Position numbers and translations under genes: made by a program. From NCBI GenBank assembly GCA_007135115.1, contig SLJN01000044.1, positions 1-41,767 on the forward strand: a DNA stretch of 41,767 nucleotides, in the 5' to 3' direction. Under the pieces are notes generated by a model. The model did no database searches, had not been told where the DNA came from, and saw only the letters and a list, made by a program, of their open reading frames with translations. The DNA is from Balneolales bacterium. GTDB lineage: Bacteria; Bacteroidota; Rhodothermia; Balneolales; Natronogracilivirgulaceae. Below, one piece after another: positions 2-41,174 of the stretch; the stretch's first letter is position 1; each line of letters opens with the position of its first letter.

Positions 2-3000
2 AATGTAAGTGATACAGAGGACTACTCTTTTGGTTTTTACAACGAATCAGCACAAGAGTGGGATGAAATCGTTGAAAATGCACCAAATTTCGTAATTGTT
101 AAATCAGCTGGAAATGATCGCAATGATGTTCCAAGCGATCAGCCGGTTGAACATTTGGTAAGAGATCCGGATGATGGGGATTGGGTGACCTCCAATACCG
201 TCAGAGATCCGGATGGAGATTACAATTCGTTAGGGTATCGCGCCACCGCAAAAAATATTCTGACTGTGGGTGCTGTCAGTAATAATAAGAACATGACCAC
301 TTTCAGTAGCTGGGGACCGACCAATGATGGCCGGATTAAACCCGATATCGTTGCCGATGGCAGTGGGTTGTATTCAGCAGGTTTTGAGGATGATGAGGAT
401 TACACATCCAAAAGCGGCACATCCATGTCCTCACCGGTTGTAACCGGGGCGGTTGCATTGTTGCAGCAGCATTACCAGGACTTATATGAGGAAGATCCGC
501 TTGCATCCACAATGCGAGCATTACTCTTGCATACCACCGATGAAATGGGAGGTGATCCGGGGCCGGACTATGAAAACGGTTGGGGTTTGCTAAATGCTGA
601 AAGAGCAGCACAAGTGTTGTCCGACGATGCGGAGATGGAGATGTTAACTCACATCGAAGAATTTACGCTGTTTGATGGCAACGAATATGAAAAGATGGTT
701 TGGAACGACGGGGAAGAACCTTTGAAAGCTACCATCGCCTGGACCGACCCCGCCGGTGAACCGGTTGATCCATCTGTTGATGATGATGATCGTATGCTTG
801 TTAATGACCTGGATTTGCGCATTACAGATGAAAACGGCAATGAATATGAACCCTATATCCTGGATCCGGAAAACCCATCGCATACTGCCACAACAGGTGA
901 TAACGACCGCGATAACGTGGAGCAGGTGTATATTGAAGCCCCGCCGGAAGCAGGTTATTACACGGTTAATGTCACACACAAAGGCTCACTTGAGGGTAAC
1001 AGCCAGCAGGCATCACTTATAGTAACCGGCAATGGCAACCCCATTGAACTTGCTGAAGACGGACATCTTGAACTGGAAGGTGACGGGTATGCTTATGCTC
1101 CGGACACCCCGTTCCTGGATATTTCAGGTGATCATTTAACTCTGGAATTCTGGGTTAAAATGGATGCCAATAGTGAAGAAGATGCCATCATCATGTCCAA
1201 AAAAGAAGAAGATGATGAGGGGGATGATGGATATAGCATCCGTACCGTAGGAGATGGGGAAGAGCGACCCCTGAAATTTGCTCCTACGGATTTTGGTAGT
1301 CGGCACATTACTACTAATTCAGGAATTCGAGCGGATGAATGGACCCACATCGCTGCAGTTTACAATGACGGGGATACTCATATTTACATCAACGGAGAAT
1401 TGGATGCTTCACAAACCAACAGTTCCCGTAATATCAGCAGTACATCTAATTCTTTGGTTTTTGGCAGTAACAATTCCGTTAACGGTCAGTTTTTTAAAGG
1501 AAAATTGGATGATGTGAGGATCTGGGCCACATCTCGTAATATGTTTGAAATTCAGGATGATTTTGCCGGACCATTGAACGGCGATGAAGATAACCTCGCG
1601 GCCTACTATCAGTTTAACCAGGAAAGTCAGGATGTCGCGAGTGATATTACCGGAAACGGCAGCGATATTAATCTTGCCCAAAACGTAGCCACAATTGGTC
1701 CGGATGTATTTCCGGTTACACCACTTGTGCACGGAAAGATTGCGGATCAGGCTGTTGAATTGAAAATTGATGAGCGTGAGTTCGCCGAAGATGAAGCAGA
1801 TCAATTTCGTGTATACAGGTCAGATGGCAACGGAAGCCCGACAGAAGTGGAAACGATAAGTGCCGATAATCAATATTATACTGATGATGGGTTGACCAAT
1901 GGTCAAACGTATTATTATAAAGTTACTGTAATTGATGAGGACGGCAATGAAAGTGATTACTCCAATCCAGTAGCGTTGACGCCAAACCAGCGAATTGGTG
2001 GTAATACTCTACGTTTCGAAGGGCAGGGGTTTATAGATTTCTCCCATCGGCCAGGTCTGAATATTTCCGGGCAACATATCACTATAGAACTTTGGATCAA
2101 ACGTGATGCGGATAGCTCCGGTGATCAAGTAATTATGACCAATGAACATGAGCGGGGTGATGATGGGTATGGCCTCTACATGGTTGATGGTGGTGAAGAA
2201 GCACGAGTCAGATTTACTCCTACTGATTTTTCCAGCCGCCACGTAACATCCAGTTCCGGAATCCGGGCTGATGAATGGATACATGTTGCAGCCGTTTATA
2301 ATGAAGGTAATACCCATTTATATATCAATGGTAAACTTGATGCTGAAAGCACCAATGATTCCCGCAGCATAAGTGGAACGAGCAATAATCTCACTTTTGG
2401 AAGTAATGTGGACCAAAATGACAAGTGGTTCCAGGGAAGTCTGGATGAAGTCAGAATTTGGAATAAAAGCAGGACACACAGTGAGATTGAATCCGACTTT
2501 AATCAAATCCTTTGGGGTGATGAATCGAATCTGGTAGGTTACTGGAGATTCGATGAAGCCGACGGTGGTACCGTTTATGGTCAGGCTCAAAGACCTGCAA
2601 CAAGCTCAATACAAGGTGCCATTGAGCAGGAAGATAATGGCGTGTTTCCGGTACCTCCCAGGATTTATGCAGAACCAGGGGAGAATGAAGTCCATTTAAG
2701 TGTTACTCAGCCCCCATATGCGTATGAGGAAGTTGAGAATTATAATATTTACCGGTATACCGAAGGTGAAAACCCAACTCTTGTAACATCACTCAGCTCG
2801 GATGACACAACATACTCAGATAATGAGCCTGATGAAGAAGTCGAATATTTTTATGAGGCTACTATTGTTGATGATCATCAGGGCGAGAGTGATCACAGTT
2901 ATCCGGTAACATCAACGCTATACGAAAATCGTATCGCCGGTAACGCTGTGCGATTTGAAGAGGATCAAAGCTCCTATATTCAGTTTGAATATAACCCGGC

Positions 3001-4465
3001 TTTAGATATTTCCGGAGACTCTATAACAGTTGAAGCCTGGGTGCTCAAAGATGATGCGAGTCAGGAAGGAGCTGTTATTTTGGGTAATAATGCCGCCGGT
3101 GAAGATGGCTATCAAATGTATATAAACGATGAGGGCTCTTCCTCAAGAGTTACATTTGCACCGACTGACTTTTCCAGCAGGCATGTTACATCGGAAACGT
3201 ACTTGGAACCGGGTACCTGGTATCACATAGCAGGAGTATATAAAAACGGAGACTCCCGGATATATATAAACGGCGCATTGGATAACGAAGAAACTAATGA
3301 CAGCCGCACAATCAGTAGCAGTAATCATGGGTTGGTTATTGGATCGAAACATCTCGGAACCGATGACTATTTTCTCGGTGAAGTTGATGAAGTTCGTATC
3401 TGGGAGCGGGCGTTACCCAACAGCGATATCGCTGCCCGGTATAATCAACCCTTGCGAGGGCATGAGAAAGGACTTGTCGGCTACTGGCGTTTTGATGAAC
3501 CAGATGGAGAAATTATCCGGTCTTCAGCGGATCGACCGCTTCATGGTGAGCTTATTAACGAACCATCATTTGTACCTTCGGCTGCCATGGAAGGAGATCC
3601 GTTTGTTCCTGTATTAGCCGAACCGGAAATGGATGATGAAGATCAGGATATTCCGGTGACCTTCTCGTGGTATCCCGTTGACAATGCACAGCATTATGAA
3701 TTGGAAGTATCAAACGATTTGGATTTTAAATCGGTCATTTATGAAAAAGAAATAAATGATACCACACGAACTGCAGATCTGGGATTAGAATATGAAAGTT
3801 CTTATCACTGGCGGGTTCGTGCAGTTACTAATCAATTCACCACGAACTGGTCGGATGCGTGGACCTTCGAGACCATGCTGCCGATTCCGGATACACCCGA
3901 ATGGGATCCGGATCATGAAGCTGAAGACGTAGATACTACCGTCACATTTGCCTGGGCGGAGTCCGATTTTGCCGATACCTACAGGGTACAAGTAGATACG
4001 GACACTGGTTTCGAGTCACCGGTGGTTGACTCGACAGGTTTGGATGAAAATGAGTTAGTCGTTGAAAATCTGAATCCCGAGACAACTCATTACTGGAGAG
4101 TATCTGCCAGCAATGAAAGCGGAGAGAGTGACTGGTCGGAAACACGTGAGTTTACTACTATTGTAACTTCAATTGCCGATGCAGGCAGGGAAGTTCCGGA
4201 GGAGTTTGGACTGGATCAGAATTACCCGAATCCGTTTAATCCATCAACACAGATTGAATACAGCCTGCCTGAGAATGCTTCAGTGTTGCTTGAAGTCTAT
4301 AATCTAATGGGTGAGCAAGTTGCTACACTTGTAAACGGAGAACAAAAAGAGGCCGGATATCATACGGTAGAATTTGAGGCGTCCGGACTTTCAAGCGGTA
4401 CCTATATTTATCGTATCCGAGCAGGTGAGTTCGTAGAATCCAGGACAATGATGTTCATTAAATAA
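2..4465 (+). CDS. Subtilisin-family (S8) secreted protease with three LamG-like domains and T9SS sorting tail (5' partial)
   Basis: The reading frame is open from base 2, so the gene starts before the window; 1487 codons are visible. The first part is the end of an S8 catalytic domain. It shows the oxyanion-hole Asn in SAGND (Asn codon 113-115) and the catalytic Ser in SGTSMSSP (Ser codon 422-424). The Asp and His of the triad must lie upstream. A beta-sandwich region follows (about 640-1030). Then come three LamG/concanavalin-like domains (about 1065-1620, 2000-2560, 2940-3500), the first two each followed by a fibronectin III-like segment. Two more FnIII-like segments (about 3600-4165) precede a C-terminal type IX sorting domain (from about 4195, with QNYPNPFNPST and final MMFIK). 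Known role of such proteins: secreted or cell-surface proteolysis with glycan- or protein-binding accessory domains. The substrate is unknown. A terminator follows at 4499. Confidence 0.93.
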   Translation, partial: NVSDTEDYSFGFYNESAQEWDEIVENAPNFVIVKSAGNDRNDVPSDQPVEHLVRDPDDGDWVTSNTVRDPDGDYNSLGYRATAKNILTVGAVSNNKNMTTFSSWGPTNDGRIKPDIVADGSGLYSAGFEDDEDYTSKSGTSMSSPVVTGAVALLQQHYQDLYEEDPLASTMRALLLHTTDEMGGDPGPDYENGWGLLNAERAAQVLSDDAEMEMLTHIEEFTLFDGNEYEKMVWNDGEEPLKATIAWTDPAGEPVDPSVDDDDRMLVNDLDLRITDENGNEYEPYILDPENPSHTATTGDNDRDNVEQVYIEAPPEAGYYTVNVTHKGSLEGNSQQASLIVTGNGNPIELAEDGHLELEGDGYAYAPDTPFLDISGDHLTLEFWVKMDANSEEDAIIMSKKEEDDEGDDGYSIRTVGDGEERPLKFAPTDFGSRHITTNSGIRADEWTHIAAVYNDGDTHIYINGELDASQTNSSRNISSTSNSLVFGSNNSVNGQFFKGKLDDVRIWATSRNMFEIQDDFAGPLNGDEDNLAAYYQFNQESQDVASDITGNGSDINLAQNVATIGPDVFPVTPLVHGKIADQAVELKIDEREFAEDEADQFRVYRSDGNGSPTEVETISADNQYYTDDGLTNGQTYYYKVTVIDEDGNESDYSNPVALTPNQRIGGNTLRFEGQGFIDFSHRPGLNISGQHITIELWIKRDADSSGDQVIMTNEHERGDDGYGLYMVDGGEEARVRFTPTDFSSRHVTSSSGIRADEWIHVAAVYNEGNTHLYINGKLDAESTNDSRSISGTSNNLTFGSNVDQNDKWFQGSLDEVRIWNKSRTHSEIESDFNQILWGDESNLVGYWRFDEADGGTVYGQAQRPATSSIQGAIEQEDNGVFPVPPRIYAEPGENEVHLSVTQPPYAYEEVENYNIYRYTEGENPTLVTSLSSDDTTYSDNEPDEEVEYFYEATIVDDHQGESDHSYPVTSTLYENRIAGNAVRFEEDQSSYIQFEYNPALDISGDSITVEAWVLKDDASQEGAVILGNNAAGEDGYQMYINDEGSSSRVTFAPTDFSSRHVTSETYLEPGTWYHIAGVYKNGDSRIYINGALDNEETNDSRTISSSNHGLVIGSKHLGTDDYFLGEVDEVRIWERALPNSDIAARYNQPLRGHEKGLVGYWRFDEPDGEIIRSSADRPLHGELINEPSFVPSAAMEGDPFVPVLAEPEMDDEDQDIPVTFSWYPVDNAQHYELEVSNDLDFKSVIYEKEINDTTRTADLGLEYESSYHWRVRAVTNQFTTNWSDAWTFETMLPIPDTPEWDPDHEAEDVDTTVTFAWAESDFADTYRVQVDTDTGFESPVVDSTGLDENELVVENLNPETTHYWRVSASNESGESDWSETREFTTIVTSIADAGREVPEEFGLDQNYPNPFNPSTQIEYSLPENASVLLEVYNLMGEQVATLVNGEQKEAGYHTVEFEASGLSSGTYIYRIRAGEFVESRTMMFIK

Positions 4466-32046: not shown

Positions 32047-33390
32047 ATGAAATTAGCTGTTATTGGTACCGGATATGTTGGCCTGGTGAGCGGAACCTGC
32101 TTTGCAGACTCTGGTAATGAAGTTACATGTGTTGATAATAACCCGGAGAAACTAAAGGCATTAAAAAACGGGGAGATCCCGATTTATGAACCCGGGCTGG
32201 ACACACTGTTCCATCGCTCAATAAGAGAAAAACGACTCTCTTTTACGGATGATCTTGAAAGTGCCGTTAAGCAGGCAGAAGTTATTTTTCTGTGTTTGCC
32301 GACCCCTCCTGGTGCGGATGGCCAGGCAGATCTCAGTTTTGTATTAGATGTGGCCGCACAGATCGCTCCCATGCTGGAAGATTACAAGGTCATTGTAAAC
32401 AAGAGTACAGTTCCCGTAGGTACGGCTGATAAAGTACGCATGACCATTGAAGCCGGCACTTCTCAGGAGTTTGACGTAGTATCCAATCCGGAATTTTTGC
32501 GTGAAGGCGCCGCTGTTGATGACTTTCTCAAGCCTGAAAGGGTCATCATTGGAAGTTCCAGTGAACGTGCCCTGGAAATTATGAAGTCTCTTTACGACCC
32601 ATTTGTTCGCAGTGGTAATCCTATTATCGCTATGGATGAAAGAAGTTCGGAGTTGACCAAATACGCCGCTAACTCCTTCCTGGCAACCAAGATTTCTTTC
32701 ATGAATGAAATTGCCAATGTTTGCGAACGTGTCGGCGCCAATATTGATGACATTCGCCGCGGCATCGGAACGGATTCCAGAATTGGTAAAAGATTCCTCT
32801 TTGCCGGTATAGGTTATGGGGGAAGCTGCTTTCCGAAAGATGTTCAGGCCCTGGATTACACAGCCGATCAACACGAGTATGATTTCAATATTCTCAAATC
32901 AGTTATAGCTGTAAATAACCGTCAGAAACTTTCTATAGTTGAAAAAATTAAATCCTACTATGAAGCTGATGGCATTAAAGGAAAAACATTTGGTATTTGG
33001 GGGCTGTCGTTTAAGCCTGAGACCGATGACATCCGTGAAGCGCCGTCACTCTACATAATTCGCGCCCTCCTTGATATGGGAGCATCAGTTAAAGCCTATG
33101 ATCCCGAAGCAATAGAAACATTCAAAGAGGCCTTCGGTGAAGACAGTAATCAAATTGAGTTTTGCGAAGATCAGGGCGAGGTTCTTCACAATTCGGATGC
33201 TCTCGTTATTTGTACCGAATGGAATGAGTTTCGAAGACCGAGTTTTACCAGGTTCTCCGAACTGATGAAAACTCCGGTTATTTTTGATGGTCGTAACCTT
33301 TATGATCTTAAAGAAGCTAAAAAGCATGGACTTATCTACTTCAGCGTAGGCAGAGAGTCCGTTAATACAGATAAAAAAATACATGCCTGA
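32047..33390 (+). CDS. ugd: UDP-glucose 6-dehydrogenase
   Basis: A 447-residue NAD-dependent enzyme converting UDP-glucose to UDP-glucuronate. The N-terminal Rossmann motif [15 protein letters not shown], the [11 protein letters not shown] and [14 protein letters not shown] blocks, catalytic Cys261 in [14 protein letters not shown], and the C-terminal [16 protein letters not shown] and CTEWNEFR define the family. It overlaps the next gene (UDP-glucuronate decarboxylase) by 8 bases, matching consecutive steps of one pathway. Some members use UDP-ManNAc or UDP-GalNAc, but the closest features are of the UDP-glucose type. Confidence 0.96.
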
Positions 33391-34336
33391 ACGTGCCTTA
33401 ATAACCGGAGGAGCCGGTTTTCTCGGATCACACCTGTGCGATCGTTTTGTTAAAGAAGGATATCATGTTATCTGTATGGACAACTTGTCCACGGGGCGGG
33501 CCGAGAACATACAGCATCTCATCGGGCACGAGCGATTCGAATTTATTAAGTATGATGTCACCGAGTATCTGCATGTAGGCGGGGAGTTAGACATCATTTT
33601 GCATTTTGCCTCACCGGCGTCTCCGGTTGACTACCTCGAAATGCCGATTCAAACTCTTAAAGTGGGATCACTCGGCACGCATAAGGCTTTGGGGTTGGCT
33701 AAAGAAAAAGAAGCTCGATTTTTACTGGCATCAACCAGTGAGGTTTATGGAGATCCCCAGATTCACCCTCAACCGGAGTCCTACTGGGGAAATGTAAATC
33801 CGATTGGGGTCCGAGGGGTGTATGATGAAGCAAAACGTTTTGCAGAGGCGTTGGTTATGGCCTACCATCGCTACCACAACCTCGACACCAGGATTGTAAG
33901 AATTTTTAATACCTATGGCCCGCGCATGCGAATAGATGACGGGCGTGCATTACCGACGTTTATGAGTCAGGCTCTTCGCGGAGAAGATATTACGATATAC
34001 GGAGATGGCTCACAAACGCGATCATTTTGTTATGTGGATGATCTTATTGAAGGCATTTACCGTTTAGCCAACTCTGATTATATTGAACCTGTCAACATCG
34101 GCAACCCCGAAGAAATTTCAATATTGGAGTTTGCAAGGGAGATCGTAAATCTCACGGGTAGCAGTAGTAAAATCGTGTTTAAAGATCTTCCTATAGACGA
34201 CCCGAAAGTCCGTCAGCCGGACACCTCACTTGCTGAAAAAGTTCTGGGTTGGAAAGCAAAAGAGAACCGCAGCGAGGGTTTAAAAACGACACTCGATTAT
34301 TTTAGGTCTAAGATCAGTGATCGACAACCTGTTTAG
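33383..34336 (+). CDS. UDP-glucuronate decarboxylase (UDP-xylose synthase)
   Basis: A 317-residue extended short-chain dehydrogenase. The NAD motif is [10 protein letters not shown] (9-18). The active site has the STSEVYGDP segment and the Y-x-x-x-K pair Tyr147/Lys151 in VYDEAKR. The UXS-typical [39 protein letters not shown] and [14 protein letters not shown] blocks are all present. It converts UDP-glucuronate to UDP-xylose. It directly follows ugd with an 8-base overlap, so the locus can supply UDP-GlcA and UDP-Xyl. Its stop overlaps the AGGAGG of the next gene. Confidence 0.95.
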
Positions 34337-34344: not shown

Positions 34345-36675
34345 ATGATGCATCCAAATGGCAATGGCCAAGGTCATCCTGCACCAATGCAACAGCAGCA
34401 GGAACCCAGCGCCTATGAAAAGTTCCAGCGCTATTGGTGGCTGGTTAAACGTAGGTGGTGGCTGGTCGTCCTGTTTGCCATTATCGGTGGAGCCTATAAA
34501 TACAATGAAGTTTTACAGGTAGAGGAGCGATTTCGCTCAACGGCAACCGTAATGTTGGATGGCTCACCTACCAATAGAGCCGTATCCCTGTTGGGAGTTC
34601 CGGGAGCAACGTACGGGTATGAAAATGAAATGTATATCCTGCGTTCTGATCAGCTTGCTCAAAAAGTAGCTGAAAATCTTTTAGAATCTTTCCATGATTC
34701 AGATAAATCAGACACCCTCAGTATCCTTCAAGCAGGTGGAGATCTGGCCACGGTAAATCAGGTGGCTAATCGCGCGCGAAGGGCGATCAGTTTTTCGGAA
34801 GGCGGGGATAAAGATAACATAATCTATTTTAGGGCGGTCAGAAATAATCCGGATGAAGCCTCCAGGGTTGCTAATGTATATGCGAATACCTACGAACAAT
34901 TTAATGTAGATCAAAGTGTAAGACAGATCCGCGATACCAAAGATTTTCTTGATGAGCGTATCGGGGATACCCAGGATTCGCTTATGCGATCTGAAGTTGA
35001 ACTATTCGACTTTTACCGGGAACACGGTTACTCTCAGTATGATGTAAGCAGTGAGGCAACGATTAATCAAATTGCCAACCTGCGGCAGGAGAAGGATCAG
35101 GCGCGCCTGCAGATGTTGTCGAATCAGGAGCAGATTCGATCTATTGACTCAACACTGGAAGCCAGTCGCCAGCAAGAAGCCGATTACTTGCTCAATGCTA
35201 CAGACAATCTGATGCAATACTATTCGGCTGAGATTGCCGATCTCGAGCTGGAAAAAGAAGAGTTGATCAATGATCCTACCACGGGTTCGGATGCAGAATC
35301 CAATCCAAGACTCGGTGTACTCGAAAATCGACTCGAAAACTACCGGGAAAAATACAGAGAGCTGCTTAGTGATAAGTTGGATAGCCCCCCATTACTTGCT
35401 ACAACGGATGGCAACGTCGCCAACGAATACGTGCGCTTGAACGCTCGCAAAATTGAGCTGGAAAACGAAAACTCCGCCCTTCCTGCAAAAATAAACCGCA
35501 TTGAGGAACAGATAGAAGATTATACCGCTCAGATGGATGAAATTCCATATCAGGAGCTGGAGTTCGAAAAACTTAAACGAAGCAGGGATCGGCATTTTGA
35601 ATCGTTGTTTAGCTTCTACAGCAAACAACAGGAAATGGAGCTTGCTCTGGCAAGTGAAGGCGGTTACGTGAATGTATTGGATTATGCGCAACCCAATAAC
35701 AATCCGATTAACACGCAAGCATCAACAGGTGTTTTCCAGGGTAGCTTTTTCGGGATAGCTATAGCCGTACTGCTTATTGTCGGTTATGATCGAATCGACG
35801 ACCGTATAAAGTCGGATGATGATTTACGCGAACTACCGGTCGGGCTAACCGGCGCTATACCGTCGATGAAACCGATCATCCAAAAAGAGTTGAACAACAA
35901 AACCTTTTTGGAATACAAAGGGGCATTTATATCGACCTCCCTGATATCAGTTCTAAGACCGCTATCGGGTATATCGGAGATGTACCGGCGACTTAGGTCT
36001 AATTTTCTATTCAGCATGCCGGATAAAAAGAATAAATCCGTGCTGATTACCAGCTCCAATCCTCAGGAAGGAAAATCGGTAACGACATCCAATCTCGGAG
36101 CCGTTCTTGCCCAAAGCGGAAAACAAGTACTTCTGATCGATGCGGACTTGCGCAGACCGAATTTAGATGTGTTTTTCGGGATTACGGGTACACCGGGCTT
36201 AAGCGATTATATTATCGGCAATGCCGACTACGATGAAGTTATTTACCCCACGATTGCGGAAAATTTAGCGGTAGTTCCTGCCGGAAGCCAGGTTCCCAAC
36301 CCTTCCGAAATTGTAGGATCTGAAATGTTCCGGTCCTTCTATGATAAATGCATCGCAGAATACGACTACGTCATTATCGACTCACCTCCTATGAACTCTG
36401 TAGTCGATGCCACAAGTGTAACAGATATCGTGGATATGAGTCTGGTGGTCGTTAACGCGGGCAAAACCCGCAAGAAGGAGCTCATTTCCGCATTGAATAT
36501 GATGCACTTCAATGCGCATAAGGTTATGGGGATTCTACTGAACAACATCCACCAGAAGAGTTTTATCTCCGACTACAATTACTACAACAACTACAATTAT
36601 TACGGAAATCGCAGTGCCGAATACAAGAACGGAACTCCAAGGGAACCATCTCTTTGGGATAAGCTTAATACTTAA
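34345..36675 (+). CDS. Polysaccharide co-polymerase / tyrosine autokinase (Wzc type)
   Basis: A 776-residue inner-membrane protein that sets chain length and couples polymerisation to export. An N-terminal TM segment (about 35-50) leads into a Wzz domain and a long periplasmic coiled coil (about 190-450). A second TM (about 465-480) precedes a cytoplasmic BY-kinase domain. Kinase motifs are Walker A SSNPQEGKSVTTSNLG (about 566-581), Walker A' LLIDADLRRPNLD (about 594-606) and Walker B YDYVIIDSPP (about 673-682). The C-terminus has the autophosphorylation Tyr cluster SDYNYYNNYNYYGNR (about 743-757). Its last 62 bases overlap the next ORF. A phosphatase partner is not seen in the window. Confidence 0.95.
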   Translation: MMHPNGNGQGHPAPMQQQQEPSAYEKFQRYWWLVKRRWWLVVLFAIIGGAYKYNEVLQVEERFRSTATVMLDGSPTNRAVSLLGVPGATYGYENEMYILRSDQLAQKVAENLLESFHDSDKSDTLSILQAGGDLATVNQVANRARRAISFSEGGDKDNIIYFRAVRNNPDEASRVANVYANTYEQFNVDQSVRQIRDTKDFLDERIGDTQDSLMRSEVELFDFYREHGYSQYDVSSEATINQIANLRQEKDQARLQMLSNQEQIRSIDSTLEASRQQEADYLLNATDNLMQYYSAEIADLELEKEELINDPTTGSDAESNPRLGVLENRLENYREKYRELLSDKLDSPPLLATTDGNVANEYVRLNARKIELENENSALPAKINRIEEQIEDYTAQMDEIPYQELEFEKLKRSRDRHFESLFSFYSKQQEMELALASEGGYVNVLDYAQPNNNPINTQASTGVFQGSFFGIAIAVLLIVGYDRIDDRIKSDDDLRELPVGLTGAIPSMKPIIQKELNNKTFLEYKGAFISTSLISVLRPLSGISEMYRRLRSNFLFSMPDKKNKSVLITSSNPQEGKSVTTSNLGAVLAQSGKQVLLIDADLRRPNLDVFFGITGTPGLSDYIIGNADYDEVIYPTIAENLAVVPAGSQVPNPSEIVGSEMFRSFYDKCIAEYDYVIIDSPPMNSVVDATSVTDIVDMSLVVVNAGKTRKKELISALNMMHFNAHKVMGILLNNIHQKSFISDYNYYNNYNYYGNRSAEYKNGTPREPSLWDKLNT

Positions 36676-37336
36676 ATTATCCGCTGCTGTATTACTGGTC
36701 TGGGGAATGAGCCTGGCTACATGCCAGCAGTTACATGCTCAGGGACAGGATTATGGTTACGGGTCAGTCATAGGTGGCTCCGATGAATCCCGATACGGCG
36801 GCCGTTCTTTCTTGCGGGATAATGAAGAAGGCATGCGAATCACCTTAATCCGTTCTACGCCTCCCGGCAGGATTGGAAGTGGACGAATGCTTGGCGGAGG
36901 TGGTTCCGGAACAGATGGCGTTCAGTTTGGAGGAGGCGGATCAGGTGGAGGCGGAAGCTCTTCGGCTCCAAGCGGTAATGTTGATATCTATGAAGTTCCG
37001 ACAGATACGGACTATCTGGAACTTCTCGTATTCTATGCCGGACTCGACCCCCGCCGTATCCGGCAAAGCCAAATCCGAATTTTAAGGGTTGATTCAACCG
37101 GAGCACCGCCGTTTTACAGCGAAGAAATTCATCGATCCTGGACCTCCCACAACTTTCGGGAAGAATATCGTCAGGGTGGACCCTTTGAGACACTTGAACC
37201 CGGGGATATCGTTATTGTAGAAGGTCGAGGTATCCTCAACAGGCCGTTTTTTGACCCCATCGCCGATATCAACTTTCTGATAACCGTGCCCACGCTGGTC
37301 CTTTCCTTCGTTTCGATTTATCGACTTTTTCAATAA
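36614..37336 (+). CDS. Secreted SLBB-like protein with Gly-rich linker and C-terminal hydrophobic helix
   Basis: A 240-residue protein read from a GTG inside wzc, because no better start precedes the hydrophobic signal segment (about 12-36, cleavage likely after LHAQ). An ATG at 36707 would cut into the signal. The mature protein has a polar and Gly/Ser-rich linker (about 85-115). A segment (about 120-205) has the pattern of SLBB domains of Wza-type export proteins: VPTDTDYLELLVFYAGL, an Arg/Ile strand (QIRILRVDS), and FETLEPGDIVIVEGRG. It ends with a hydrophobic helix (about 220-238). There is no Poly_export N-terminal domain and no lipobox. It lies between wzc and a polymerase, so export is a likely role. 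Family assignment is by pattern only. Confidence 0.7.
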   Translation: MPNTRTELQGNHLFGISLILKLSAAVLLVWGMSLATCQQLHAQGQDYGYGSVIGGSDESRYGGRSFLRDNEEGMRITLIRSTPPGRIGSGRMLGGGGSGTDGVQFGGGGSGGGGSSSAPSGNVDIYEVPTDTDYLELLVFYAGLDPRRIRQSQIRILRVDSTGAPPFYSEEIHRSWTSHNFREEYRQGGPFETLEPGDIVIVEGRGILNRPFFDPIADINFLITVPTLVLSFVSIYRLFQ

Positions 37337-37354: not shown

Positions 37355-38824
37355 GTGCAGCCACAAGGATGGACATATCCCAATAACTGGCCTGCTACTC
37401 CAAAAAGTGGCAACGTTTCGGCTGCAGGTGCACATCAAACGGCATTTCAAACCAATGTTGCCGCTCCGGTAAGTCTGTTTCTGTTTATCCTCTATGCCAT
37501 GTTCACTATTGATCCCGGAACAGGCCTGTCCACTGATATTTTTGCCGTTAATTATGTTCACTACGCTTATGTGTTATCGGCTGCTATTCTTGTTCATCCG
37601 CTGGAACAAATTATAAAAGGAGGCATCAAGTCATTTTTCCGGGCGGATGTTTTGCTGTCCACTAGTTTTATCTATTGGGCTATTCTGGACATCATTCAGG
37701 ATCGTATCTCGCTGATTGATCTTCCTGTGCACAGCGTGCAATACGCTTTTATCTACATTGCGGCTTTTGTTCTTGTAGTTCAGGTTTTTGCAAATTATCA
37801 GTTCCGCTTGCCGGCACTGGTTAAAGACGCTTCCCGCATTGATATCGACAGCAGAATGCTGATAATCATCCTCGTGATCTGTTTTCTGATAGGATTATTT
37901 CCGTTTTACCGCGGAGCTTATTACGATTTTGCCTACATGATCGAGGGGCTTTCCCGCCCGAGGTTTGCCGCTCCATGGGCACGAGGCGCCGGCGGAGGAT
38001 TCGGTGCGATCTTCGAGCACATGAAGTATTTCGGGTATGTGCTACCCGCATTGACGGCGCTGATCATCTACAAAGAGGGTAAATTCAATTCTAAAGTTTT
38101 CCTGGCTATTGCCCTGACGTTATTCTTCGGAGCTTTTGAGTTTCAAGGTGGCGGACGGCGTCTGACCGGCTTCCTTTCCGGAATGGGCATCATTACCTAC
38201 TTGGTTGCCAAGCGCCACGACCTCCGCTTAAAGCACTTTGTGATAACCGGTCTTTTGGGGTTTGCAATACTCGTCCTCATGGATATGCAGCTAACATTCC
38301 GGAATGTTGGCTATGAAGAGATGTTCACCGAATATGAGTACGGTGAATTCGATGAAATTCAGGTTGATGATAATTTCCTGCGAATCGCTCAAATGATCGA
38401 ATATGTACCCGAAAGATACGAATATTCGGGTACCCAATATCTGGTTTGGGCTTTTGCCCGACCTATTCCACGGTATTTTTGGGAAGATAAGCCTACAAGT
38501 CCCGGGTTTAATATTGCAAGAATGGTAGGCGAGCAAGGTGTTGCTCTAACTACTACTGTGGTAGGGGAAGCGTATGCCAGTATGGGCCTTACGATGATTA
38601 TCATTGTAGGTATTTTATATGGATTACTGGCCGGAACGCTTTCCAGAATGTTGCATCAACCCTTGGGAATTATTGGCGTGGCCCTTTATGCAATTGGCAC
38701 ATTGGCTCTCGTAGGGGGCGTGCGTTCTCTTGTGGACTTAATCATTTATTCCTATGCATTCTTAGGACTGCTGGTCATTTATCACTTTTTGATACGTGGC
38801 AAAGAAACCAGGATTGAAGCATGA
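37355..38824 (+). CDS. Wzy-like oligosaccharide repeat-unit polymerase (first copy)
   Basis: A 489-residue integral membrane protein with about 11-12 hydrophobic segments and a large periplasmic-type loop in the C-terminal half. That loop carries FARPIPRYFWEDKPTSPGF, followed by VVGEAYASMGL and another TM. This layout and the P-R-x-x-W-x-x-K-P / GE-x-Y pattern are typical of O-antigen or exopolysaccharide polymerases, which join lipid-linked repeat units in the periplasm. The GTG start has an AAGGAG site about 11 bases upstream. It begins 18 bases after the SLBB-like gene, and its stop overlaps the next start (ATGA). Sequence divergence in this class is large, so the assignment rests on topology and motif. 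Confidence 0.8.
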   Translation: MQPQGWTYPNNWPATPKSGNVSAAGAHQTAFQTNVAAPVSLFLFILYAMFTIDPGTGLSTDIFAVNYVHYAYVLSAAILVHPLEQIIKGGIKSFFRADVLLSTSFIYWAILDIIQDRISLIDLPVHSVQYAFIYIAAFVLVVQVFANYQFRLPALVKDASRIDIDSRMLIIILVICFLIGLFPFYRGAYYDFAYMIEGLSRPRFAAPWARGAGGGFGAIFEHMKYFGYVLPALTALIIYKEGKFNSKVFLAIALTLFFGAFEFQGGGRRLTGFLSGMGIITYLVAKRHDLRLKHFVITGLLGFAILVLMDMQLTFRNVGYEEMFTEYEYGEFDEIQVDDNFLRIAQMIEYVPERYEYSGTQYLVWAFARPIPRYFWEDKPTSPGFNIARMVGEQGVALTTTVVGEAYASMGLTMIIIVGILYGLLAGTLSRMLHQPLGIIGVALYAIGTLALVGGVRSLVDLIIYSYAFLGLLVIYHFLIRGKETRIEA

Positions 38825-39939
38825 AAATCCTCTATTATTGGCTAACAATGGGGCCATACCATTTTGCCCGAATGAATGCGCTGGCTCAACAGCCCGGCAT
38901 TGATCTTCATGTGATTGAAGCAACCAATATTGACGATCACTACTGGAAGCGGGAAGAACAAAACTTCGCTTTTACTCATCAATCTATCTATGAAGATCAG
39001 GTTTTGGATGCGGCCATTACTCGTAAAGCCTCCCGTCAACTGGTTGATGTAATAGGAGACATCCGCCCGGAAATCTTTGTTAACGGTGCCGGCTATTTTG
39101 AGCCTTTCATGTATTCCCGGCTGCGAAAGATTAAGAAGAAATTTCATCCCCGATTGGTACTGTGGTCGGAGAGTACGCGGTTTGATCACAAACGCATTTT
39201 TTGGAAAGAGCAGATAAAAAAAGCCATTCTGGGATTATATGATGGTGCCATTGTCGCCGGAATGCCCCACAAATCTTACCTCACTCAACTTGGTTTGCCG
39301 GAGGATTTAATCGGTGTGGTTGGCAATGTGGTTGACAATCAATTCTATCAAACCGATGAGGCTGAAGATGATCGGCGAAGCGGATTTTTATATATCGGCC
39401 GCTTTCTGGATATCAAAAACCTGGAATTTTTGATCCATTCTTATGCCGAGTATCGCAGGCAGAGTCAACTGCCCACCGAAGAATTGCATCCGCTTTATTT
39501 GGTAGGGGACGGACCGGAGCGGGAAAGACTCGAAGAAATGGTAGCGGAGCAACAGATTCCCGGCATTGTGTTTACAGGAATACTTCAACCGGATGACGTT
39601 CGCAAAATGTATGAAGGCTGCTCAGTTTTTGTATTGCCCAGTACGAGTGAACCCTGGGGGCTAGTCGTGAATGAGGCTATGGCATCCGGAATGCCGGTAT
39701 TGGTATCCAACATGTGCGGATGCAGCTTTGATCTGGTCTGGGATGGGCAAAACGGATTCTTATTCGATCCATGGGACCAGCAGGAGTTAACCGAAAAATT
39801 GCTGATTCTAAGCGGAGACCCCGATCTGAGATTTAAAATGGGCAGGGAAGCTCGTCAAACGATCGCACAGTTTACACCTCAAACCTACGCCGAAAAGTGC
39901 GTTCAGTTTTTTCAACATATCCACCCGCAGATCGCCTGA
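38821..39939 (+). CDS. GT4-family glycosyltransferase
   Basis: This 372-residue GT-B fold enzyme is cytoplasmic and membrane-associated, and adds a sugar to the lipid-linked repeat unit. The C-terminal donor-binding domain shows GFLYIGRFLDIKNLEFLI, LYLVGDGPERERLEEMV, VFTGILQPDDVRKMYEGCSVFVLPS and the E-x7-E motif in EPWGLVVNEAMASGMPVL. It begins on the ATGA overlap with the polymerase, so it is translationally coupled. Donor and acceptor cannot be told from sequence; the locus itself could provide UDP-GlcA or UDP-Xyl. Confidence 0.93.
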   Translation: MKILYYWLTMGPYHFARMNALAQQPGIDLHVIEATNIDDHYWKREEQNFAFTHQSIYEDQVLDAAITRKASRQLVDVIGDIRPEIFVNGAGYFEPFMYSRLRKIKKKFHPRLVLWSESTRFDHKRIFWKEQIKKAILGLYDGAIVAGMPHKSYLTQLGLPEDLIGVVGNVVDNQFYQTDEAEDDRRSGFLYIGRFLDIKNLEFLIHSYAEYRRQSQLPTEELHPLYLVGDGPERERLEEMVAEQQIPGIVFTGILQPDDVRKMYEGCSVFVLPSTSEPWGLVVNEAMASGMPVLVSNMCGCSFDLVWDGQNGFLFDPWDQQELTEKLLILSGDPDLRFKMGREARQTIAQFTPQTYAEKCVQFFQHIHPQIA

Positions 39940-41174
39940 ACATTAGAAACTGGCTTCACCCGGCCGGGTGGCTGATTTGGGTAACCCTGCTGATCTACGT
40001 CGTCTTTTTTCTGATCAGAGGAGCAACGACGACCGAGGATACTTTTCTGAGCTGGTCCGGCTACCTTCAATATTTCCTGTTGATCGGCGCATTATTACTG
40101 CCCTTTGCCTTTTTCAGAGTTCAAACTGTTCCATCCGATTGCGACCACAGGTGGAAACTTCCCTTAAAATCACTGCCGGGCATCCTGGCGATGGGTCTTT
40201 ATTTGGTATTGGTACTTATTCGTCTCATTTCACTTCCGGAGTGGCAATATGAACAGATCCGGTTTCTGACCCCACCTTCCCTTTATTTCCTGAGTTTTGC
40301 CGGGTGGCTCATTGGCGGATTGCTGGTTTGGCAACTTCTCGTTCGGAACCTGAAAGCCATTCCTCTGATCATCATTTTGGTGGAATTAAGCTTCATCATC
40401 CACATAGGCTACCGGGAATGGGCCGTCTGGTTTATGTTGATGATCGCTTTGATTATCACCACCAGCTACCGCAGGATCCGAAACCGTGAGTTTTTACTGC
40501 TGATGGTCGTTTTTATCCTGATTTTCTCTCCGCTTCACAACAGTTACCGCTCTGCCGCCTCTTATGTAAACGGATTGGATGAAGCTCAACAGGCTGAAAC
40601 GTCAGTTTTGGCGGAATCGCCGCGCTATTTTTTCTCTCATTATCTCGAATTCACCGGAAATACCATAGAACGGGTGCGAGCGGAATCGGCGATGACCGCC
40701 CGGATTATCGAAAAAGTACCGGACGAGGTGGAGCGAAGATCAACCCGAAAACTTCTTCAGGAAACCGGTACGGTTGCCATCCCTCGCATGTTATGGGCGG
40801 AGAAACCGGCTTATCGTCCCGGTGAAGAGGCCTTTGCCACATTTATTGCGGATCAGGACGATCTGCGCCGAACCCACCCAACCGGTTGGCTTGGGGAGAT
40901 GTACTGGCACTGGGGCTGGGCAGGCATTCCGGCTGCGTTTCTACTGGGCTCCCTGCTCATCTTTGTTTGGAATACCTACACCCGTATCTATCGATATGCA
41001 CCGGCTTGGCTGGTTTCACATTATGCGCTTATATTCGGGTTTACCCAAACTCATTTCATATTTTACAGCACAGCCTGGCTGAGAATCTTACCCTTGTATC
41101 TTCTTTCCGGTTTGCTTATATGGATATGGTCACATCATCAAACGATTTCTTTTGATTTTATTCGGAACAAGTAG
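39897..41174 (+). CDS. Wzy-like repeat-unit polymerase (second copy)
   Basis: A 425-residue integral membrane protein with about 9-10 hydrophobic segments. Its C-terminal loop has VAIPRMLWAEKPAYRPGEE, then GWLGEMYWHWGWAGIP and further TM segments. This mirrors the PRxxWxxKP...GE-x-Y arrangement of the first polymerase. Its role is inferred as polymerisation of a second glycan, or an alternative linkage. The GTG start overlaps the preceding glycosyltransferase by 43 bases; a non-canonical start nearer the end of that gene (CTG 39936 or ATT 39942) is possible. Its end overlaps the next glycosyltransferase by 23 bases. Confidence 0.75.
   Translation: MRSVFSTYPPADRLNIRNWLHPAGWLIWVTLLIYVVFFLIRGATTTEDTFLSWSGYLQYFLLIGALLLPFAFFRVQTVPSDCDHRWKLPLKSLPGILAMGLYLVLVLIRLISLPEWQYEQIRFLTPPSLYFLSFAGWLIGGLLVWQLLVRNLKAIPLIIILVELSFIIHIGYREWAVWFMLMIALIITTSYRRIRNREFLLLMVVFILIFSPLHNSYRSAASYVNGLDEAQQAETSVLAESPRYFFSHYLEFTGNTIERVRAESAMTARIIEKVPDEVERRSTRKLLQETGTVAIPRMLWAEKPAYRPGEEAFATFIADQDDLRRTHPTGWLGEMYWHWGWAGIPAAFLLGSLLIFVWNTYTRIYRYAPAWLVSHYALIFGFTQTHFIFYSTAWLRILPLYLLSGLLIWIWSHHQTISFDFIRNK

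Follow-up and report, generated by a model that had tools for sequence, protein, structure and literature searches.

Introduction

The exporter Wza is built of domain D1 (Poly_export), domains D2 and D3 (SLBB) and a helical pore, and in the cryo-EM of Wza with Wzc the helical arm of Wzc docks on D1, the deletion of which disperses Wza (PMC12881504). In Wza and the OPX proteins, Poly_export (PF02563) is combined with SLBB (PF10531), and Wza_C may be present or absent. Among short OPX proteins, the typical finding is either a helix at the C-terminus or coupling to a barrel, and the PCPs of such proteins have been argued to reach further (PMC9601211). One SLBB protein that stands alone and ends in a helix is also known: GfcC (PF06251), from group 4 capsule loci, with two SLBB domains and an amphipathic helix of 21 residues (PMC9603273).

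The protein described here resembles each of these in part. It shares with Wza and the OPX proteins export by Sec, an SLBB domain followed by a C-terminal helix of similar predicted energy, and linkage to a Wzc-type PCP, but it is without D1, has one SLBB only, is not a lipoprotein and is closer in sequence to a set of minimal proteins introduced below. Small size and D2 (SLBB) are common to it, to the D1D2-OPX proteins (e.g., EpsY) and to the short Bacteroidetes OPX proteins (PMC9601211), the last of which also have the C-terminal helix and no coupled barrel; both of those groups, however, retain D1. Like GfcC, it is a stand-alone SLBB protein without Poly_export, ending in a helix and encoded in a capsule locus, and like the N-terminal part of ComEA it has a single SLBB following a membrane-targeting N-terminus. 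It is SLBB-based and partly OPX-like, yet by definition it is not an OPX, and if the strict glycine signature is applied it is not an SLBB protein either.

The Locus

The window, by which is meant the whole stretch of 41,767 nucleotides analysed, is the entire contig C15 of a Balneolales MAG with 409 contigs (89% complete, 6.9% contamination), so that absence of a gene from its own genome is weak evidence. The cluster of interest reads as follows.

32047..33390, + strand: UDP-glucose 6-dehydrogenase (sequence recognition)
33383..34336, + strand: UDP-glucuronate decarboxylase-like epimerase (sequence recognition)
34345..36675, + strand: wzc, PCP-2a tyrosine autokinase with a Tyr-rich tail (AAA_31; weak Wzz and GNVR; TIGR01007)
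36614..37336, + strand: gene of the minimal SLBB-like protein (240 amino acids, GTG start, stop included)
37355..38824, + strand: wzy, repeat-unit polymerase (TIGR04370)
38821..39939, + strand: glycosyltransferase family 4 (Pfam)
39897..41174, + strand: putative second Wzy/ligase-like membrane protein (no family match in Pfam or NCBIfam)

The GTG start of the SLBB-like gene lies inside the 3′ end of wzc, with an overlap of 62 nt, and wzy begins 18 nt after the gene, at 37355. Its nearest relative, which occupies the same gene place in Balneolales bacterium CSSed165cm_526 (L004), is 79% identical, and over 235 codons the two genes differ at 49, 25 and 125 first, second and third codon positions, respectively. 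The dN was about 0.15–0.17 and the dS about 1.9–3.7, with a dN/dS below 0.1. This ratio, together with the third-position bias, identifies the reading frame as a real, constrained protein, in keeping with the original prediction of a gene overlapping wzc, and the gene is under purifying selection.

Two Wzy-like membrane proteins (37355–38824 and 39897–41174) are encoded in the window cluster, in which no Wzx flippase was recognisable. The second of them is fused to a glycosyltransferase in G128 (L011:3058-5091, 678 aa), and the two are separate genes in L012. Elsewhere in the window, positions 155–4465 encode a subtilisin-like protein of 1436 aa that carries LamG and FN3 repeats and ends in a type IX sorting-like domain. 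The true start of this protein may lie past the contig end.

Anatomy of the Protein

Five segments of the protein can be distinguished.

36614..36739, + strand: predicted Sec signal peptide without lipobox, residues 1–42 (sequence; h-region and lipobox check)
36752..36856, + strand: conserved N-terminal segment YGYGxVIGG...EEGMRITLIRS, residues 47–81 (family alignment)
36857..36976, + strand: glycine-rich low-complexity stretch, residues 82–121, of varying length among relatives (alignment)
36977..37231, + strand: SLBB-derived core, residues 122–206, VDIYEVP...TDYLELL...IRILRVD...LEPGDIVIVEG (alignment, profile-profile comparison)
37262..37333, + strand: C-terminal hydrophobic helix, residues 217–240 (hydrophobicity, insertion energy, low-confidence model)

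The hydrophobic N-terminus ends in LHA-Q, and cleavage would fall between LHA and Q. The sole cysteine (in LATC) is unfit as a lipobox and is missing in relatives, and hmmscan to E 10 returned no Pfam family, Poly_export (PF02563) included, for the window protein, which NCBIfam models did not match either; Poly_export had no match in the L011 and L012 relatives either. A protein without the polysaccharide-export domain and lipobox was what had been predicted, as was the C-terminal hydrophobic helix, whose best 19-residue Kyte-Doolittle mean is 1.83.

By the full alignment, the end of the conserved segment (MRITLIRS) is likely the first SLBB strand, VxVWGxV, a placement with which a strand predicted at residues 74–80 in a low-confidence model is consistent; in L012, HMMER gave weak support to this register of the N-terminal part. 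By the same placement, the glycine-rich stretch is probably an insertion in the turn between strands one and two, within the first SLBB hairpin.

Relation to the SLBB Domain

The signature of the SLBB superfamily consists of two conserved glycines, including the sGG motif (PMC1796856). At the sGG position the four close family members have AGL, ARL, SRM and SNL, and the glycine signature is thus lost. No match over the curated cut-off of PF10531 or PF22461 was obtained for the window protein or for the L011 and L012 proteins, and the GfcC family PF06251 did not match the window protein, which has one SLBB-like domain, not two. A family-profile search nevertheless reached PF10531-positive proteins (E 1e-8) that have a signal, one SLBB and a C-terminal helix. 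When the four-member window family was compared by hhalign with 58 minimal SLBB proteins, a set that includes clear PF10531 matches (E 1e-8), the score was 73.4 (P 1.2e-11). None of 100 column-shuffles exceeded 26.9, and none of 40 unrelated families encoded at the same loci exceeded 22.9; the score against the last SLBB of 13 OPX proteins was 27.2. From these controls it follows that the window family is of SLBB descent, with the minimal proteins nearest. It forms a long branch of 3.1 changes per site in a tree of few SLBB-domain columns and lies beyond BLAST reach of the other 58. The single SLBB-like pattern of the original prediction therefore stands by profile-profile comparison and fails by Pfam, where no curated model matches.

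The SLBB domain is a beta-grasp. AlphaFold2, given one sequence or two, returned low-confidence models of the window protein, with a pLDDT of 46 and 38, in which the order strand-strand-helix-strand-strand appears. Foldseek of these models against the PDB gave nothing below E 1, and a sequence search against PDB chains gave Gly-linker and chance matches only; chance was likewise taken to explain many weak matches in the search of the phylum, methionine sulfoxide reductase and IspH-like proteins among them. At a pLDDT of 38–46, the fold, oligomer and membrane location of the window protein are what we infer. A secreted protein of unrelated fold, having in common with the SLBB proteins only an (L/I)xPGDxIxV-like motif and a hydrophobic tail, would account for the want of a Pfam match at any threshold, for the lost glycines and for the low pLDDT of both models. 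This is nonetheless very improbable, as the profile-profile score is far over those of shuffles and unrelated families, and the strand-helix-strand order, the tail and the neighbour gene are the same as in the minimal SLBB set.

Distribution and Linkage to PCP Genes

Among the 129 genomes of the order, the close form of the window gene was confined to four, which are also exactly those with the wzy neighbour; wherever the contig reaches, they keep wzc, SLBB, wzy and glycosyltransferase in this order. G128 additionally has a regular minimal SLBB protein next to another wzc (L087). A profile of three minimal proteins brought up many more, of 165–210 aa, across the phylum, and 178 of 396 genomes had a match to it at E ≤ 1e-6, a figure that includes the SLBB domains of OPX proteins. 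The window protein belongs, as a divergent member, to a widespread set of proteins of 165–240 aa with a predicted signal, one SLBB, a C-terminal helix, no Poly_export and linkage to a PCP. The relatives and the minimal set rule out a lone oddity of one MAG.

The linkage to wzc, on which the original prediction in part depended, proved to be conserved in relatives. Of the 62 minimal SLBB genes, 48 are at most two genes away from a PCP/Wzc gene, 38 as immediate same-strand neighbours (13 downstream of the PCP and 25 upstream) and 10 more at the greater distance. Of the remaining 14, two (L004 and L011) are cut by contig ends, with L004 beginning within the wzc end. PCP/Wzc was the most recurrent neighbour family (53 loci), followed by sugar-nucleotide epimerases (30 loci), and the PCP identity was confirmed by Pfam in three neighbours (Wzz, GNVR, AAA_31). 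Outer-membrane barrels did not recur widely around the 62 genes, PorV-like proteins being present in 6 loci, and a linked barrel as the partner in the suggested adaptor role was accordingly set aside. In several Balneolales loci a gene of ~233 aa stands between the PCP and the minimal protein; suspected of being an OPX, it looks like a metallophosphoesterase.

Five loci (L051, L126, L128, L129 and L131) have a minimal SLBB gene away from wzc, after a large gene, a PorV-like gene and a gene for a secreted protein or lipoprotein, and the large gene, where tested, was a C25 peptidase, PorU-like. These non-wzc loci suggest that minimal SLBB proteins have another use as well, near type IX secretion or the sugar anchoring that goes with it.

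The C-Terminal Helix

Insertion energies into the inner membrane were approximated with a simplified, position-weighted formula, which makes them supportive and not decisive. For the C-terminal helix the median among minimal proteins was +0.38, and the window protein had +0.93, compared with +0.64 for OPX helices of the same genomes (p 0.57), whereas the two transmembrane helices of the neighbouring Wzc, at −1.31 and −1.16, differ from the minimal-protein helices (p < 1e-11). The same contrast has been described for Wza-type outer-membrane helices and inner-membrane helices (PMC11845990). The proposed likeness to the Wza C-terminus is thus upheld by hydrophobicity statistics alone, and the structure models lend it no support.

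These energies bear on the idea that the protein is an inner-membrane subunit of the PCP complex, in which the helix would anchor it by Wzc or Wzy and the SLBB would sense polymer or repeat units. The tight linkage to wzc would suit such a subunit, as would the negative predicted energies of the helices of some members (L052 and L110, for example). As a group, however, the helices match those of OPX proteins and differ strongly from the adjacent Wzc helices, and we regard an inner-membrane role as improbable.

Other Exporters in the Same Genomes

A search for a separate Wza in the window genome found two Poly_export proteins, encoded on other contigs. Both also have SLBB domains, and no stand-alone Poly_export protein was found in the genome, which speaks against the split exporter that had been put forward as one option. 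On contig C391 of this genome (L013:509-2211), the gene of a lipoprotein OPX with Poly_export, one SLBB and a weak C-terminal helix is followed directly by that of a PorV/FadL-like outer-membrane barrel; the pair resembles the composite OPX/barrel translocon, though the type of barrel differs. A multi-SLBB OPX of 568–613 aa is conserved beside a DMT-type permease in G000:C216 (L014), G128 (L045), G003 (L047) and G015 (L049), with no polysaccharide genes visible nearby.

OPX proteins persist in most genomes with minimal SLBB proteins, that of the window included, and often one of them is multi-SLBB and unlinked. Every Balneolales genome tested that has the minimal protein had at least one Poly_export protein, usually multi-SLBB, of roughly 570–640 or 810–880 aa, and unlinked. 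This coexistence fits the main rival to an exporter, a GfcC-like periplasmic adaptor or accessory that would stand between Wzc and a full OPX encoded elsewhere (e.g., on C216, L014), or would modulate chain length, and would not itself be the passage through the outer membrane. GfcC provides the precedent for it, and in four operons (L107, L108, L111 and L121) the minimal SLBB gene, a Wzc kinase, a multi-SLBB OPX and a short non-kinase PCP are adjacent in that order. In those mixed loci, however, the OPX adjoins its own PCP, with a periplasmic part of 308–317 aa, against 408–416 aa in the Wzc beside the minimal protein (402–427 aa in the Wzc beside minimal genes generally). Also against an adaptor, 10 of the 63 genomes examined, each 98–100% complete, have a minimal SLBB protein directly adjoining a PCP and no Poly_export match (G251, G268, G332, G360, G362, G369, G386, G478, G495 and G540). 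The adaptor is a serious contender that we nonetheless hold to be rather less probable than not.

Proposed Role

The reading that we favour, at about even chances, is that the window protein partners Wzc on the outer-membrane side, as a Wza of which domain D2 and the helix are left. A reduced exporter was among the options originally raised, and the SLBB relation, the OPX-like helix, the wzc linkage, the ten Poly_export-free genomes and the want of a widely linked barrel keep it in the lead. Such a protein would be made beside Wzc from the overlapping genes and then exported by Sec, whereupon its C-terminal helix would insert, like that of Wza, into the outer membrane. Several copies would join their SLBB domains into a ring on the periplasmic face, equivalent to D2 of Wza, and the periplasmic arm of Wzc would pass polymer from the neighbouring Wzy to this ring; the arm would dock either on the SLBB ring itself or on the conserved segment near the N-terminus. 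The outer-membrane location, the oligomer, the pore and the contact with Wzc are all points that we infer. Since D1, the docking domain for Wzc, is absent here, a direct contact of D2 with Wzc would need another surface. Nothing weighs more against direct export than the absent D1, and nothing weighs more for it than the ten genomes without Poly_export.

A bolder version, advanced tentatively and in our judgement doubtful, is that a D2-only exporter constitutes a fourth architecture, in which one SLBB ring and an alpha-helical outer-membrane pore, without D1, would form a complete export path with a long-reach Wzc, and that it is widespread in the Bacteroidota-like group searched. The length of the Wzc proteins here parallels the further reach argued for the PCPs of short OPX proteins. 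If there is such an exporter, it would have been missed because two OPX surveys (PMC9603273, PMC9601211) select on Poly_export.

Significance

The architecture had been thought undescribed, and in the literature searched, subscription literature aside, no description was found of a single-SLBB, helix-ended, Poly_export-free protein by Wzc. GfcC is a close precedent all the same, and the architecture turned out to be common rather than unique. The minimal SLBB set, which is without Poly_export, is common in a major bacterial group, where it occurs with Wzc, and it is the sole OPX-like protein found in ten near-complete genomes. If its members are adaptors, they would be a common extra component of Wzx/Wzy machines, nameless in the searchable literature. 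If they are exporters, the domain required for the docking of Wza and Wzc would be dispensable in nature, and the exit of polymer without a full OPX would become directly testable.
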